From: Deltaproteobacteria bacterium | GTDB taxonomy: Bacteria; Desulfobacterota; GWC2-55-46; S146-70; JAUXIU01 | DNA length: 15,529 bases | Reading direction: 5' to 3' | NCBI GenBank assembly: GCA_030620895.1 | Contig: JAUXIU010000006.1 | Coordinates: forward strand, 1 to 15,529 | Shown here: one piece after another, positions 3,457 through 7,407 of the stretch | Numbering within the stretch: position 1 is the first letter of the stretch | Layout: the number at the start of each line of letters is the position of its first letter | The notes under the pieces: model-generated | The model's input: the letters and a program-made list of their open reading frames with translations, nothing else | Database searches by the model: none | Told to the model about the DNA's origin: nothing | Translations under genes and position numbers: made by a program

Positions 3457-3561
3457 TCGAGTTGCGTGTTGCGTGTTGCGAGTTTCGGGTTACGAGTTGT
3501 GTGTTACGAGTTGCGTGTTGCGAGTTTTAAACCTTAAACCTTAAGCCTTGAACCTTTTGCC
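3457..3561. repeat. Tandem 7-base repeat array, 15 units, two families in one register
   Basis: Ten consecutive 7-base units of the form NCGNGTT (variants include GCGTGTT, ACGAGTT and GTGTGTT) run from 3457 to 3526. Five units near TTAAACC follow at 3527-3561 without a break in 7-base phase. The array fills almost all of the gap between cbiD and malQ. No unit carries a promoter or a coding signal. Confidence 0.85.
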
Positions 3562-3580
3562 ACGAAGTGCCTAAGTTCTA

Positions 3581-4750
3581 TTATATGGCAAGTGTCTTAA
3601 TGTCAGAGAAGTATCCTACCAGTATACATCCAATCCGAGGATATGAACCTACAATCGCTCTGGCATTTTTCTTTATCTTTTTACACACAACATTAAAGAC
3701 ACCGTCTAATCTATTTTCCTGTAATACAAAGAATACCTCTCTGGCGGTATTTGCATCTATTATATTGTTAACGATTTTTCTTTTAGCCCCTGCATCTTCT
3801 GCAAGACCTGCAAGGAATTCCAGCTCGACACTAGAATCTTTACAGTGCGTTTCGAAGTGTCCGGATGCTAATTTGCTGAATTTCCCGAATTGTCCTGCGA
3901 TGATGACCTTTTTCAAGGCCCCTGATGCCTTCTCCTTCTTTGCTACCTCTCTTAGTGCAAAGCCCATGTGGTCTCCTACAAGTATGCAAGCGCAAGCCTC
4001 CTCAAGAAGGTTTAACTCTCTCTGGGCAACCTTCTCACTGCTCCTTCCTGTGGATAACAAGATTACACTACAGCCCGATGCAACAGCCACATCAAGGCTA
4101 CAGATTATTGAATGTCTGTATGCAGATATTGATAAGGGTTCTACGATACCTGTAGTACCGAGGATAGAGATACCCCCTGCTATACCCAAACGGGCATTCA
4201 TCGTCTTTTTGGCAAGGTCTTCACCCTTGGGAACTGAGATTGTAATCGAGAGTTGAGGAGGACACGTGGATAACTGGGAGATGACGTCGCGAACGGCCTT
4301 TTTTATCATCTTCCTTGGTACCGGATTTATTGCAGGCTCTCCAATCGGTACAGCCAATCCAGGCTTTGTAACGATACCGATACCCTTGCCTGTAAGGACC
4401 GTGAATCGTGAACCTTGAACCGTGAATCGAAAGGCATTTACACCACCGGCTAATAACTGCTGACCACTGACCTCTGCTTTTATCTCCGCCCCATTTGTCA
4501 CATCCGGGTCGTCACCCGCATCCTTGATTATAGATGCAACCACATTCTCTTGCCCTATTGAATAACTATGAACAGGCAGATTAACCGTCTGACCTGATGG
4601 TAGAGCCACTTCAACATTCTTTGGCCTTTTTCCCGATAAGAAGGCGATGGTTGCCGCCTTGCTGGCAGCGGCTGCGCAGGTGCCGGTTGTTAAGCCCCTT
4701 CTCAAACCCCTTTTCTTTGATATACCTTCCAAACGGTTCCTAATATACAC
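3581..4750 (-). CDS. cbiD: Cobalt-precorrin-5B (C1)-methyltransferase
   Basis: 389 residues. CbiD uses SAM to methylate C-1 of cobalt-precorrin-5B in the anaerobic cobalamin pathway. Visible family motifs are LTTGTCAAAA (20-29), DAGDDPDVTNGAEI (77-90), VTKPGL followed by GEPAINPVPR (127-146), and GTTGIVEPLS (198-207). Residues 108-121 hold a tandem 7-residue repeat (RFTVQGS, RFTVLTG) that I do not expect in CbiD; it is encoded by a 7-base DNA array, just before the conserved GIGIVTKPG loop. The start is uncertain. The ATG at 4750 gives a 49-base overlap with the upstream membrane gene and has no ribosome site. A TTG at 4732 has AGGA five bases before it. A TTG at 4705 overlaps the upstream stop as TTGA, which would suit translational coupling. 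The motif core is unaffected by this choice. Confidence 0.93.
   Translation of the reverse strand: MYIRNRLEGISKKRGLRRGLTTGTCAAAASKAATIAFLSGKRPKNVEVALPSGQTVNLPVHSYSIGQENVVASIIKDAGDDPDVTNGAEIKAEVSGQQLLAGGVNAFRFTVQGSRFTVLTGKGIGIVTKPGLAVPIGEPAINPVPRKMIKKAVRDVISQLSTCPPQLSITISVPKGEDLAKKTMNARLGIAGGISILGTTGIVEPLSISAYRHSIICSLDVAVASGCSVILLSTGRSSEKVAQRELNLLEEACACILVGDHMGFALREVAKKEKASGALKKVIIAGQFGKFSKLASGHFETHCKDSSVELEFLAGLAEDAGAKRKIVNNIIDANTAREVFFVLQENRLDGVFNVVCKKIKKNARAIVGSYPRIGCILVGYFSDIKTLAI
4398..4432. repeat. 7-base repeat array inside cbiD
   Basis: Five in-phase units near ACCGTGA or ATCGTGA lie within the coding region. Three units (21 bases) equal seven codons, so the array produces the 7-residue repeat RFTVQGS/RFTVLTG on the minus strand. 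The wording (CGTGAATCGTGA) is close to the ACGAATC-type units at 6870-6897 read on the opposite strand. Confidence 0.8.
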
Positions 4751-5121
4751 CCGAGTATAAGAGCCAGCACAAGACCCTGGAATGCCTGGACCCCTAAGGC
4801 ATTATATCTCCATGGACTCATTGCAGAGAGCAGAAACCCTCCGATAGAGAGTAATATCCATATAGAGGTAGAAACGAAGACCGCCTTTGTGAAAAAACCC
4901 TTAAAGGGAAGCCACTTGCTGGTAATCGCTAAAAAAACACCCACAACAATACCAATGACGGCACCTCCAACTGAGAAACTGATCAGGTTATGAAAAAGGG
5001 AACTCTCAAAAGGGAATACGCCGCTTATTGTATTTAAAACCATGGCTACCCATCCCCATATAATCCCTGCTACAACACCCGAACCAACCCCTCTCTTCCA
5101 ACCGGTATAATCCAGTTCCAT
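4702..5121 (-). CDS. Four-helix membrane protein, candidate cobalt-transport partner
   Basis: 139 residues. The ATG at 5121 has an excellent AGGAGGAA ribosome site on the minus strand (5125-5132). Four hydrophobic stretches are seen at about 12-32, 46-67, 78-100 and 112-133. There is one histidine (His44) and no cysteine or known catalytic motif. I do not recognise the family. It sits between a cbtB-like gene and cbiD in a cobalamin locus, and CbtB proteins are normally paired with CbtA, a membrane protein of roughly 220-250 residues. This protein is too short to be ordinary CbtA, so a cobalt-uptake role is inferred from its neighbours only. Its 3' end overlaps the start of cbiD, which suggests co-translation. 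Confidence 0.75.
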   Translation of the reverse strand: MELDYTGWKRGVGSGVVAGIIWGWVAMVLNTISGVFPFESSLFHNLISFSVGGAVIGIVVGVFLAITSKWLPFKGFFTKAVFVSTSIWILLSIGGFLLSAMSPWRYNALGVQAFQGLVLALILGCILGTVWKVYQRKGV

Positions 5122-5154
5122 ACTTTCCTCCTGAAAAATATGTTTTACATTGTT

Positions 5155-5182
5155 GCGAGTTGCGGGTTACGGGTTGTGTGTT
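5155..5182. repeat. 7-base repeat array, 4 units
   Basis: The units GCGAGTT, GCGGGTT, ACGGGTT and GTGTGTT are in exact 7-base phase, of the same family as 3457-3526 and 6849-6869. The last unit merges into the first unit of the 9-base array that follows. Confidence 0.8.
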
Positions 5183-5346
5183 TACCTGGTCTACTTGGTT
5201 TACCCAGTTTGCTTTGTTTACCTGGTTTTCTTTGTTAACTTTGCATTTTTTATTTAAACCATGTGAACTATGCCAACCCTGTGAACCATGTTAACCATAC
5301 AAACCATGTTAACCATACAAACAATGTTAACTATGTAAACCATCTC
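5180..5346. repeat. Inverted pair of 9-base repeat arrays (large quasi-palindrome)
   Basis: The left arm has seven 9-base units near GTTTACCTG (5180-5242). After a 14-base T-rich spacer, ten 9-base units near AACCATGTT follow (5257-5346). The reverse complement of the right-arm units reads as GTTTACATG-like, so the arms are complementary in repeat family and could fold into a long imperfect hairpin. The array occupies most of the gap between the cbtB-like gene and the membrane protein gene and ends five bases from the cbtB stop codon. Confidence 0.85.
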
Positions 5347-5350
5347 ATGC

Positions 5351-5527
5351 CTAATGGCATGGCATGCCGATAACATGCCTGAAATCATGGAATGCGTCGT
5401 GTACACCGTGGGCTATAGATTCCATACCGTAGACGATAATTACCGTCGCAAGGGCCATCCCAAAGATAAGCAGGACTGGCCAGAGGGTCTTTAAAAGCAC
5501 CTTTTCATCCTTCAATATCTGCTCCAT
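5351..5527 (-). CDS. cbtB: CbtB-like small membrane protein, predicted cobalt transporter subunit
   Basis: 58 residues. The ATG at 5527 is preceded by AAGGAGGT about eight bases upstream on the minus strand. One membrane helix spans about residues 13-34. It is followed by a histidine-rich tail with His40, His43, His47, His51 and His58, ending in FHDFRHVIGMPCH. That tail is the hallmark of CbtB proteins as I recall them (HDxFHDxRHxxGxPCH). CbtB is a proposed cobalt transporter subunit found in cobalamin loci, often under B12 riboswitches; the transport role is predicted for the family rather than proven here. A normal CbtA partner is not seen, and the next gene encodes a shorter membrane protein instead. 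A terminator separates this gene from cbiX-cbiC upstream, so it probably has its own promoter. Confidence 0.85.
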   Translation of the reverse strand: MEQILKDEKVLLKTLWPVLLIFGMALATVIIVYGMESIAHGVHDAFHDFRHVIGMPCH

Positions 5528-5553
5528 AGTTCTATACCTCCTTTTTGTTTTAT

Positions 5554-5582
5554 GTTTTAGGTTTTGTTTTATGACTTTCCAA
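5554..5582 (-). promoter_or_regulatory. Weak candidate promoter for cbtB-like gene
   Basis: On the minus strand, TTGGAA and TAAAAC are spaced 17 bases apart, downstream of the terminator that ends the fusion gene and upstream of the cbtB ribosome site. The -10 matches the consensus at four of six positions. Confidence 0.3.
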
Positions 5583-5610
5583 ACTTATTGTCCTACTCGG
5601 AGACTGGGAG

Positions 5611-5638
5611 AAAAACCCTCGCCTTTAGGCGAAGGGTT
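5611..5638 (-). terminator. Intrinsic terminator after cbiX-cbiC
   Basis: On the minus strand a 10-bp stem with one bulged base (AACCCTTCGCC and GGCGAGGGTT, loop TAAA) is followed by TTTTTC. It starts inside the stop codon of the fusion gene. Its presence implies that the genes downstream are transcribed separately or by readthrough. Confidence 0.75.
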
Positions 5639-6696
5639 TAGTTTGACTTTGTCTTCTCACTTGCTAAGATCAGGAGGGCGTTTATTATCGCCACCGCAAC
5701 AGTGCTTCCACCCTTCCTCCCCCTGCATGTTATATATTGAAACCCGGAACTAATCAATTCTTCCTTTGACTCAACGGCTCCGACGAAACCGACAGGGACC
5801 CCTATAATCATAGCAGGTTTTGCCCTTCCTCCGTTTATCAGCCTTATAAGTTCCGAGAGGGCGGTTGGTGCATTACCTATGGCCACAATGGAACCATCCA
5901 TCAACCCCGCGGCCTTTCGCAGGGAGGCGGATGTCTTAGTAATCTTCTCTCTATCTGCAAGCTCTATTATATCAGGATCCCTTGAGAAACACTTTACAGA
6001 TCCACCAAACCCCTCCAGTATACTCTTATTTATTCCTGCCTCTACCATGTGAACATCGGTAATAATATCTCCACCGCATCTTATAGAATCGATGGCTCTC
6101 TCTATGGCACCCTGACTGAACATGAGGTTACCTGTAAAATCAAAATCCGCTGTAGCATGGATGACCCTCTTTAGAATAGGCAGTTCCATCGGGCCAAATC
6201 TTGATTCATCGATCTCTTTGCCGATGATTCGGAAACTCTCCGCCTCAATTGGATGTTGTTTTGCCGGGTGCCGGGCCTTTTTCCGGGTATTGAGCCCTGA
6301 TCCACGACCCGTGATCCCTGGTCCCTGCTCCATTTCTTCCTCAATTCTTTCTACAGCCACTTCTACGATCTTCTCGTGACAACCCAGATTCTTGGCAACT
6401 CTAATCTCAATATCCGGGTATCTCCTCTTTGCTGAATCTACCTCTTGAGGGAGGTCCTTCCTGACATGGACCCCCATATAGAGGAAATAGGGGTGTATTA
6501 TTACCTTTTTTTTGCCCCTGTCTAAGATGATATCGATCGCCTCTTGAAAGTTTGGATGCTCAAATTCGAGGAAGGCAGGCTGGACAACTTCATAGTTGCC
6601 TTTCTCTCTTATACGATCGGCTACATCGAAAAGTGTCCTGTTTGCCTCTGGTACAGGACTGCCGTGTCCGAAGATAATTACTGCAGTTTTTTCCAT
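5638..6696 (-). CDS. cbiX-cbiC: Fusion of sirohydrochlorin cobaltochelatase and cobalt-precorrin-8 methylmutase
   Basis: 352 residues in two domains. Residues 1-120 are a short CbiX (CbiXS): an FGHGSP motif with His11 and an HPYFLYMGVHV segment with His68 and His77. The two metal-binding histidines of short CbiX proteins correspond best to His11 and His77. This domain inserts cobalt into sirohydrochlorin. Residues about 149-348 are CbiC, which moves a methyl group from C-11 to C-12 to give cobyrinate; the expected catalytic His180 lies in RVIHATADFD, with TDVHMVEAGI and VAIGNAPTAL further on. The linker (about 122-147) is encoded by a 7-base repeat array and is rich in Gly, Arg, Lys and Pro. 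The two activities stand at the start and near the end of ring synthesis, so the fusion does not suggest direct channelling. The ATG at 6696 lacks a clear ribosome site. The gene is led by the cobalamin riboswitch at 7055-7235. Confidence 0.93.
   Translation of the reverse strand: MEKTAVIIFGHGSPVPEANRTLFDVADRIREKGNYEVVQPAFLEFEHPNFQEAIDIILDRGKKKVIIHPYFLYMGVHVRKDLPQEVDSAKRRYPDIEIRVAKNLGCHEKIVEVAVERIEEEMEQGPGITGRGSGLNTRKKARHPAKQHPIEAESFRIIGKEIDESRFGPMELPILKRVIHATADFDFTGNLMFSQGAIERAIDSIRCGGDIITDVHMVEAGINKSILEGFGGSVKCFSRDPDIIELADREKITKTSASLRKAAGLMDGSIVAIGNAPTALSELIRLINGGRAKPAMIIGVPVGFVGAVESKEELISSGFQYITCRGRKGGSTVAVAIINALLILASEKTKSN
6263..6332. repeat. 7-base repeat array inside the cbiX-cbiC linker
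   Basis: Ten in-phase 7-base units are seen: two near GCCGGGT, two degenerate, then six near TGATCCC (6291-6332). The array coincides with the interdomain linker, codons about 122-145, and not with either folded domain. Confidence 0.75.
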
Positions 6697-6715
6697 GCTG
6701 TAAGTCTTATACTTT

Positions 6716-6789
6716 GATTACTCAGATTACAATAAGATTACACCGATTAAAAACATCGCAAAATTGACTGGTTAGAAATCTGTGTAATC
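6716..6789. repeat. 9-base GATTAC repeats with a distal inverted copy
   Basis: Units near GATTACACA occur at 6716, 6725, 6736 and 6745 (9-base steps, with two extra bases before the third). The sequence AATCTGTGTAATC at 6777-6789 is the inverse of 6716-6728 at 12 of 13 positions. The group lies in the leader of cbiX-cbiC. Confidence 0.65.
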
Positions 6790-6790
6790 A

Positions 6791-6813
6791 GTTTCCAAGG
6801 GTTTTGACGAAAC
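6791..6813. repeat. Interspersed hairpin element, degenerate copy 3
   Basis: GTTTCCAAGGG and a terminal GAAAC match the left arm and the end of the element at 109-135, but the right arm is shortened, leaving only a 5-bp stem. Confidence 0.4.
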
Positions 6814-6820
6814 AAAATCA

Positions 6821-6904
6821 TCGTATTGCGTGTGTCGTGGTTCGTGTTGCGAGTTGCGAGTTACGGGTTTCGATGCACGAATCACGATCCACGAGCTACG
6901 GTTT
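6821..6904. repeat. 7-base repeat array, 12 units, changing orientation midway
   Basis: Seven units near TCGTGTT or GCGAGTT (6821-6869) are followed, in the same 7-base phase, by units near ACGAATC (6870-6904). The second half resembles the reverse complement of the first (CACGA against TCGTG), so the array can fold on itself. It lies in the leader of cbiX-cbiC. Confidence 0.85.
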
Positions 6905-6913
6905 TTTATTCTT

Positions 6914-6950
6914 CAGTTCCCAGGGTTTTTTACACTGGAAACATATTCCT
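6914..6950. repeat. Interspersed hairpin element, copy 2
   Basis: GTTCCCAG (6916-6923) and CTGGAAAC (6935-6942) form an 8-bp stem with one mismatch or wobble. The loop again has GG followed by a T run. The whole is nearly identical to 109-135 and to the bases flanking it. Confidence 0.6.
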
Positions 6951-7002: not shown

Positions 7003-7054
7003 ATTAATATAAATGCATATCATCCCTCACTCTCCTGACCCTCGAGGACGTTTG

Positions 7055-7235
7055 TGAGGTCTACCCAGACAGGTCTCCTGACTCGTGGTTCATTCTAGTC
7101 TCTGCGCCTTCCCACCCCGAGGTGGTGGCAGATAGTGCAGATTTCGTTCCCACTTACAGTGGCGGGGCCGTTCCCGATTCTCACGGGATTCCCTATTAAA
7201 CCCGCTTGCAGCGGGTTACCTGGATAGGATTCTTC
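7055..7235 (-). promoter_or_regulatory. Cobalamin riboswitch
   Basis: Read on the minus strand, the conserved parts appear in order. First comes an AACCCGC/GCGGGTT hairpin (7199-7217), then GGGAA and GAATCGGGAACGG-type segments, then GCCACTGT (7156-7163). GAAGGCG (7105-7111) follows, and lastly the B12-box AGTCAGGAGACCTG (7070-7083) with CCTGTCTGGGTAGACC after it. These are the hallmark strings of adenosylcobalamin-type riboswitches. It lies between a strong promoter and a terminator hairpin, ahead of cbiX-cbiC. High cobalamin should favour termination; that mechanism is inferred from the layout. Confidence 0.95.
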
Positions 7236-7244
7236 GTAGAAAGT

Positions 7245-7320: not shown

Positions 7321-7367
7321 TAGCTTCTTAGGCTACTCCCTGTTTTCCCTGGAAAGCTAAGAAGCTA
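7321..7367. repeat. 11-bp inverted repeat in an AGCT-rich stretch
   Basis: TAGCTTCTTAG (7321-7331) and CTAAGAAGCTA (7357-7367) are perfect inverted copies separated by 25 bases. Further AAGCTA words continue to 7383 at 7- to 8-base steps, and GTAGCT words occur upstream (7305-7325). It lies between the divergent riboswitch promoter and glyS and has no T run. Confidence 0.65.
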
Positions 7368-7407
7368 TAAGCTAAAAAGCTAATTTGAACCCATTTCGAT
7401 AAAAAAG

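Follow-up and report, generated by a model that had tools for sequence, protein, structure and literature searches.

The stretch analysed here in full, called the window, comprises the 15,529 nucleotides (nt) of contig C36 (JAUXIU010000006.1) in the draft genome of a Deltaproteobacteria bacterium (GCA_030620895.1, the host; 1,258,513 bases in 231 contigs, 81% complete). Its minus strand carries the genes for MalQ, CbiD, CbtB and a CbiX-CbiC fusion, recognised by Pfam and NCBIfam matches among gene calls from a simple codon-score script, and tandem arrays with a step of 7 nt lie between and within these genes. Arrays of this kind are in excess throughout the host sample, many are inverted pairs, and at orthologous coding sites in relatives the step and the place persist while the word turns over. 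The original prediction listed five such arrays at this cobalamin locus and ascribed them to a slippage or template-copying process that conserves the period rather than the sequence. The features are as follows.

3458-3526, plus strand: array A1, about ten NCGNGTT units between malQ and cbiD, not an inverted pair (Tandem Repeats Finder, TRF, and lag identity)
3527-3556, plus strand: array A2, units of TTAAACC that keep the phase of A1 (TRF and lag identity)
4398-4429, minus strand: array B, inside cbiD, at site 1 of the three loops with arrays in relatives (TRF; comparison of CbiD orthologues)
5152-5182, plus strand: array C, intergenic, GTTNCGN units (TRF and lag identity)
5179-5343, no strand assigned: array of period 9/18 with inverted arms at 5187-5243 and 5286-5342 (TRF; inverted score 21)
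6263-6332, minus strand: array D, weak, in the CbiX-CbiC domain linker (6259-6339; lag identity and domain matches)
6807-6821, plus strand: flank module common to five host loci with the element E type (flank comparison)
6815-6907, plus strand: element E, a hairpin whose arms (6815-6846 and 6876-6907) are built of heptads and which ends in ACGGTTTTTT (z -5.3 and -4.4 against base shuffles)
6846-6873, plus strand: GTTNCGN core inside element E (TRF)
3428, 3581 and 6696: start of malQ (minus strand), end of cbiD (minus strand) and start of cbiX-cbiC
7051-7238, minus strand: cobalamin riboswitch aptamer (RF00174, Rfam match), behind which the minus-strand genes named above stand; context only

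Four of the five listed arrays are clear, with lag-7 identities of 0.71 (3457-3561), 0.75 (4398-4432), 0.76 (5155-5182) and 0.66 (6821-6904). The array at 6263-6332 (0.56) is graded as weak, because TRF made no call there and its best stretch, 6291-6331, reached a score of only 12. At the listed arrays the other lags within 3-13 gave identities of 0.03-0.36. The TRF calls of period 7 in the window are 3458-3526, 3527-3556, 4398-4426, 5152-5176, 5542-5573 and 6846-6873; the run at 5542-5573 is imperfect and was not on the original list. When at least 20 matches per 28-pair sliding window were demanded, lag 7 reached this level at 72 window positions and lags 6 and 8 at none, while 200 first-order Markov shuffles of the window gave a mean of 0.01 and a maximum of 2, so that the autocorrelation stands above shuffled sequence as had been predicted. 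Lags 9, 14 and 18 are also high (13, 41 and 82 positions), which reflects multiples of 7 together with an array of period 9. The mean over the entire window shows no elevation at lag 7 (0.256, compared with 0.262 at lag 6 and 0.254 at lag 8); the period-7 signal is local.

The excess of period 7 extends beyond the window. We sampled every fourth contig of the host (56 of 231 contigs, 285,634 bases or 23%, 80% coding) and obtained 58 tandem arrays, of which 37 have period 7, six period 14 and two period 21 (45 together), compared with one of period 6, four of period 8, four of period 9 and one each of periods 12, 16, 18 and 20. The predicted genome-wide excess over periods 6 and 8 is thus borne out. 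No array was left after one shuffle of each sampled contig, and a search of the first 40 host contigs with a more permissive threshold yielded 53 arrays, 41 with period 7, 14 or 21. Period 7 is over-represented among the tandem arrays of the host, as is characteristic of heptameric simple-sequence repeats. Allowing at most two mismatches, we counted 221 matches of the pattern GTTGCGNGTTGCGNGTT in the host compared with 7 for the reversed pattern, and between 0 and 51 in 30 relatives. The count of intergenic against genic sites that had been proposed placed 49 of the 55 period-7 arrays of the host sample outside open frames (10 of the 49 at contig ends) and five wholly inside them.

Many of the sampled host arrays consist of (TCGTGNN)n followed by (NNCACGA)n, an inverted layout that the original prediction did not foresee. 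Inverted pairs make up 30 of the 55 period-7 arrays in the host (mirror control 4, background control 3), and 19 at a stricter level (controls 0 and 0). The corresponding counts are 5 of 8 in genome G118 (0, 0), 11 of 23 in G122 (2, 2) and 16 of 34 in G123 (2, 2), so that the layout exceeds both controls in four of the five genomes tested. In 104 inverted pairs, which were picked for good pairing and in which a hairpin with two called arrays enters twice, the unit consensus of the two arms shows 0, 1, 2 and 3 differences in 21, 49, 29 and 5 cases. Folding energy marks fewer arrays than the layout does: 18 of the 55 host arrays have z below -3 against base shuffles on either strand. Among the period-7 arrays of the window the layout is restricted to 6815-6907 (score 14), the other five called arrays scoring 5-7. 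The array at 5179-5343, also absent from the original list, is palindromic and has the same inverted layout with period 9/18 instead of 7; its inverted score is 21, yet its folding energy is ordinary (z -1.5).

Element E lies between the cobalamin riboswitch and the start of cbiX-cbiC, likely in the leader of this gene. Nearly every one of its heptads has CG at the same place, and because CG is self-complementary the register is kept across the switch of arms. At 6821-6904 the change of unit family without loss of register, which the original prediction noted for its arrays, marks the passage from one arm of the hairpin to the opposite arm. The in-phase change at 3526/3527, which is seen directly in the sequence, stands: the array there is not an inverted pair, so hairpin arms do not explain it.

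Element E belongs to a CGTG/CACG family that is dispersed through the host genome and whose hairpins end in ACGGTTTTT. The tail motif CACGANNNACGGTTTTT, with one mismatch allowed, has 62 matches in the host (control 0) and lower counts in 116 relatives, at most 22 (G012, control 0). Among these 62 matches 30 loci were tallied for orientation in 32 entries. Relative to both neighbours the T-run of the tail runs antisense in 21 and sense in 3; it lies between divergent neighbours in 3 and lacks two neighbours in 5, of which two repeat a locus. An intrinsic terminator was rejected for the host family, since the T-run is mostly antisense (21 against 3 sense, among the 24 copies whose neighbours are co-directional). 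A general orientation rule was likewise rejected, because the Bryobacterales bias is opposite for the same word and because in the host the bare word is evenly split (26 against 25). Some host copies have longer flanks in common, one module in five loci and another in three. Element E itself is flanked by two copies, one partial and one full, of another dispersed repeat, approximately TTTCCAGGGGTTTTTGCACTGGAAA, an imperfect palindrome; in the window one copy (113-134) is free of arrays and another (6920-6941) flanks element E. This repeat occurs with and without an array in the host, and no clean empty site was seen among its copies. Many similar dispersed copies, as expected of repetitive extragenic palindromes (REP) with their REP-associated tyrosine transposases or of miniature inverted-repeat transposable elements (MITE), were found for the CGTG/CACG family of the host only. 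The host has two Y1-type transposase genes; the tail motif is absent from the contig of one (C212) and from the 1.7 kb around the other (on C169). Compared with element E, a related element (L141) has its GTTGCGA core in the opposite orientation between the arms, as if the loop had been flipped.

The comparison of coding arrays in relatives supplies the central evidence. We collected the CbiX-CbiC gene from 28 genomes, 27 of them readable (L076, misread by the script, was left out). The domain linker carries a 7- or 8-nt array in 8 of the 27 orthologues, array D of the window included, in a count that leaves out the partial L099 and L100, the former of which also carries arrays. Six of these eight linkers are inverted pairs scoring 12-20 and form in-frame palindromes within the open frame, whereas D scores 6 and that of G008 scores 8. 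The 18 short linkers (11-19 amino acids) have no 7- or 8-nt array and an inverted score of 7 or less, and one long linker holds a 12-mer. In genus g6, four species have the gene: one is free of arrays and three have differing arrays. G016 and G020, from different families, have 8-nt words in common at the linker, which may therefore reflect common descent or transfer. A GC-rich palindrome of another type was seen in one CbiX-CbiC linker (L075).

In CbiD, arrays lie at three loops in all 9 orthologues of families f3 and f6, in a count that leaves out the partial L238; the host has one, and the other families have none (0 of 19). We compared units in hand-picked arrays from 9, 8 and 6 of the 9 f3/f6 species at sites 1-3 and from five of the eight linkers, those with heptads. 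Unit agreement within arrays is 0.95 at the CbiD sites, compared with 0.65, 0.61 and 0.60 between species and 0.52-0.54 at random; for the heptad linkers the values are 0.84 within, 0.56 between species and 0.51 at random. Identical words were found in 6 of 36, 1 of 28 and 0 of 15 species pairs at sites 1, 2 and 3, some neighbours thus sharing words. Several of the arrays at site 2 are nearly neutral in length (26-28 amino acids, compared with 25 in most array-free orthologues). At orthologous coding sites the step and the place persist while the word turns over. Site 3 also holds in-frame GC-rich palindromes of another type (L217, L221, L223 and L224), with GTGGGCTGCGCCCAC in three of them and a GGGTACCCATCC-type palindrome in G002.

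At two cobalamin loci, which can overlap within one genome, arrays with periods of 7, 14 or 21 reach a density per 10 kb of 10.0 in f6, 6.5 in f3, 2.4 in f1, 1.2 in f11, 0.19 in f7 and 0 in f5, f9, f10 and f12. A period-7 excess was also found in the relatives G005, G010, G012 and G014, whose sampled stretches include cobalamin contigs (L245, L250, L255 and L260). Wholly inside open frames lie 47 of 83 arrays in four f3/f6 genomes, and 16 of 46 outside the chosen cobalamin contigs. Words are shared between array pairs at a mean of 0.147 within a genome, 0.040 between genomes and 0.021 at random, and within-genome sharing is highest in the Bryobacterales (0.573) and the host (0.116). In G010, G012 and G014 the sharing is 0.056-0.060 within a genome and 0.053-0.057 between them.

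Similar arrays occur in other phyla. Named genomes were scanned for CACGANNCACGANNNACGGTTTTTT, which turned up in 14 stretches from two Bryobacterales, four Deltaproteobacteria, one Muproteobacterium and one Desantisbacterium. The eight genomes G117-G124 were chosen because they match this pattern, and they contain 1052, 997, 142, 101, 20, 12, 5 and 4 matches of CACGANTCACGANTCACG (controls 0-4), the two Bryobacterales, G117 and G121, having about 1000 CACGANT matches each; the host has 223 (control 0) and six other genomes of its phylum 0-8. Some genomes from other phyla show strong enrichment of the CACGANT word, so the sequence is not free everywhere. Period 7 accounts for the majority of the arrays, or is the commonest period among them, in G117, whose stretches lie at the matches, and in G122 and G123. 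The CACGA strand in G117 is mostly sense to its neighbours (13 against 1), opposite to the bias of the host family. GTTACGN words are enriched only in the host and G123, and are near the control elsewhere across the phyla (G122: 16 against 2).

Taken together, these data partly support the original interpretation. The idea that the period is kept rather than the sequence agrees with the CbiD arrays of the relatives, but the CGTG/CACG words of the host form a dispersed family. Because of this family and the CACGANT enrichment elsewhere, a purely sequence-free process is disfavoured.

The remaining features of the window concern the surroundings. The Rfam scan of the window gave nothing beyond the cobalamin riboswitch, and the frames 381-956 (191 amino acids) and 4702-5121 (139 amino acids) have no match in Pfam or NCBIfam. 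An 8/15-base array of AAGCTAA at 7353-7383, ahead of a glyS-like frame, was not on the original list.

Our leading explanation, to which we give a little less than even confidence, is a recurrent local process of slippage and fold-back copying that produces short, imperfect repeats with a step of 7 nt, with a dispersed-repeat component. The nascent 3' end would slip by one 7-nt unit along the template, less often by 8 or 9 nt, and in many cases would fold back and use its own array as template, which yields a hairpin whose arms consist of heptads; two inverted arms would frequently result. Continued slippage would keep the units of an array alike, so that the word is replaced but step and site remain, and the products may survive where they do little harm, in intergenic DNA and in tolerant loops and linkers of enzymes. 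In some genomes certain words have additionally spread as dispersed families, and this dispersed component is real in the host and in the Bryobacterales. Slippage with fold-back fits because the step is conserved, units change together, arms are complementary and arrays recur at tolerant sites. The broader proposition, that a DNA-synthesis process with a built-in 7-nt step, strong in a few families of the class and paralleled in other phyla, builds arrays, folds them into inverted pairs and repeatedly overwrites the tolerant loops of conserved enzymes with differing words, may hold, although we regard it with more reserve. One fixed template for all arrays is unlikely, as there are too many words per genome.

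Loss of repair was considered as a background to this process. Mismatch repair usually corrects loops smaller than 7 nt. A MutS_V match is present in 38 of the 41 class genomes (G000-G040) and is weaker or missing in several f6 genomes, several f6 assemblies being incomplete; a MutS match with E < 1e-80 was found in 3 of 8 f6 genomes (that of G014 in pieces, at contig ends), 3 of 3 in f3, the host and 13 of 14 in f7. The hairpin nuclease SbcD exceeds the cut-off in two of the 41 class genomes and has any match in seven, compared with 13 matches, eight of them over the cut-off, in 14 control genomes. Repair loss as the sole cause was rejected, since the array-poor f7 genomes mostly lack an SbcD match too; for the same reason the lack of SbcD would be at most a permissive background to the origin of the arrays.

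Several observations weigh against slippage with fold-back copying. The nearest genome compared belongs to another family of the same order, and slippage was deduced rather than seen. The common words and flanks of the host point to dispersal. SbcD is unmatched in most array-poor f7 genomes as well, the unbiased sample of G118 gave only seven arrays, none scored as period 7 (two of period 14, one of 21), and none of the 21 arrays in the Bryobacterales genome G117 is inverted. The likeness of units within an arm (0.75) is not above the complementarity between arms (0.79), therefore separate homogenising of the arms is not shown, which is part of the reason why our confidence in the mechanism stays below even. 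Additionally, in 35 host copies (L038, a false match, was left out) pairing between the two arms of one copy was not better than pairing with arms taken from different copies: with the centre fixed on a CG, the value was reached by 953 of 2000 permutations, and with free centres self-pairing scored 12.5 and chimeras 14.1. Arm-to-arm correction or covariation within a host copy was rejected, as neither test showed any; the lack of self-preferring arms is the expectation for a family with a fixed consensus.

One could argue instead that the arrays are dispersed palindromic repeats (REP-like, MITE-like or like Rickettsia palindromic elements, RPE) that spread by copying, the heptads being merely the build of the arms and the coding copies tolerated in-frame insertions. 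The fixed-tail family of the host, the flanks common to five and three loci, the better match of words within genomes than between them and the two Y1-type transposase genes all speak for such copying. However, sharing in G010, G012 and G014 is equal within and between genomes, so that a few copied families do not account for most of their arrays, and the words at one coding site differ between species. Neither a clean empty site nor a target duplication was shown, and the tail motif is missing from the surroundings of the Y1 genes described above. We regard copying alone as a somewhat doubtful explanation of the arrays. Ordinary heptamer slippage without a hairpin step, the inverted pairs being incidental, would suit the quoted window arrays other than 6821-6904 and those of the Bryobacterales, which are not inverted, and heptamers are the commonest long repeat class in most genomes according to a 2007 survey cited in two reports (PMC4679880, PMC4692102). 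It is nevertheless unlikely, given that slippage cannot by itself produce a complementary arm and that inverted pairs exceed the controls in four of five genomes and occur in six of the eight array-bearing CbiX-CbiC linkers.

It is least probable, and to us very improbable, that the arrays are functional sites such as terminators, mRNA hairpins or binding sites of nucleoid proteins (IHF/HU), as proposed for Geobacter metallireducens (PMC2700814). Besides this precedent, such a role would suit the mostly intergenic position of the host arrays and the fixed tail and orientation bias of the host family. Against it, the T-run has the wrong orientation for a terminator, the Bryobacterales bias is opposite for the same word, 47 of 83 arrays lie inside open frames in four relatives and the words are too diverse for one binding protein.

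Heptamer repeats have been described in several bacteria. Earlier publications already report the excess of heptamers, heptads with degenerate positions and tandem sites paired on opposite strands (PMC4679880, PMC4692102, PMC2700814), and it was suggested that 7 nt reflects the stretch held by the polymerase (PMC4679880, PMC4692102). In Geobacter metallireducens a heptanucleotide family lies between and within genes, with several word families per genome and tandem units of 7 or 8 nt, mostly as opposite-strand pairs at variable distance (PMC2700814). The 30 of 55 host arrays with two tandem arrays on opposite strands (controls 4 and 3) resemble these sites, which differ in having been interpreted, in a single species, as binding sites or as elements of RNA; word turnover at orthologous coding sites, present here, does not appear in the part of that account seen (PMC2700814). 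The GGGANTN arrays of Xanthomonas and the GGGGA(C/T)T arrays of Nostoc are degenerate, genome-wide and mostly intergenic, include some inverted pairs and vary in length and sequence between related species (PMC4692102). They represent one G-rich word family per genome and are discussed as G-quadruplexes, whereas here there are many words, and coding arrays in relatives. Tandem sets of TAACTGA direct repeats occur in marine Beggiatoaceae, some Cyanobacteria and Bacteroidetes (PMC4679880). This single heptamer, patchy across distant phyla, is comparable to CACGANT, but it is a fixed word with few variants and mostly lies upstream of start codons, unlike the arrays here (PMC4679880). Heptamers of the short tandemly repeated repetitive (STRR) type in Calothrix are mentioned in one of these reports (PMC4692102), and coding palindromes are known from mitochondria of Nematomorpha (PMC6649704).

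A literature search by six array sequences yielded no matching paper, and our searches, made in literature poor in subscription journals, brought up no description of arrays with period 7 in which the words are replaced at orthologous coding sites. Coding sites with a constant step and place and a changing word make the suggestion of a polymerase-held stretch testable. These sites also indicate a route by which ordinary metabolic enzymes may gain new protein sequence in their loops and linkers, and the inverted layout speaks for fold-back synthesis and not for slippage alone.

Cyanobacterial STRR share the tandem heptanucleotides with the arrays described here and would differ in having few fixed words. 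RPE and REP/REPIN are dispersed palindromes, each a sequence family, and RPE stand in frame inside genes. One sequence family at different genes, as in RPE, was not found here, since sharing within G010, G012 and G014 (0.056-0.060) is about the same as between them. In contrast to RPE and REP, the words at the coding sites differ between species, and the arms are built of tandem heptads.

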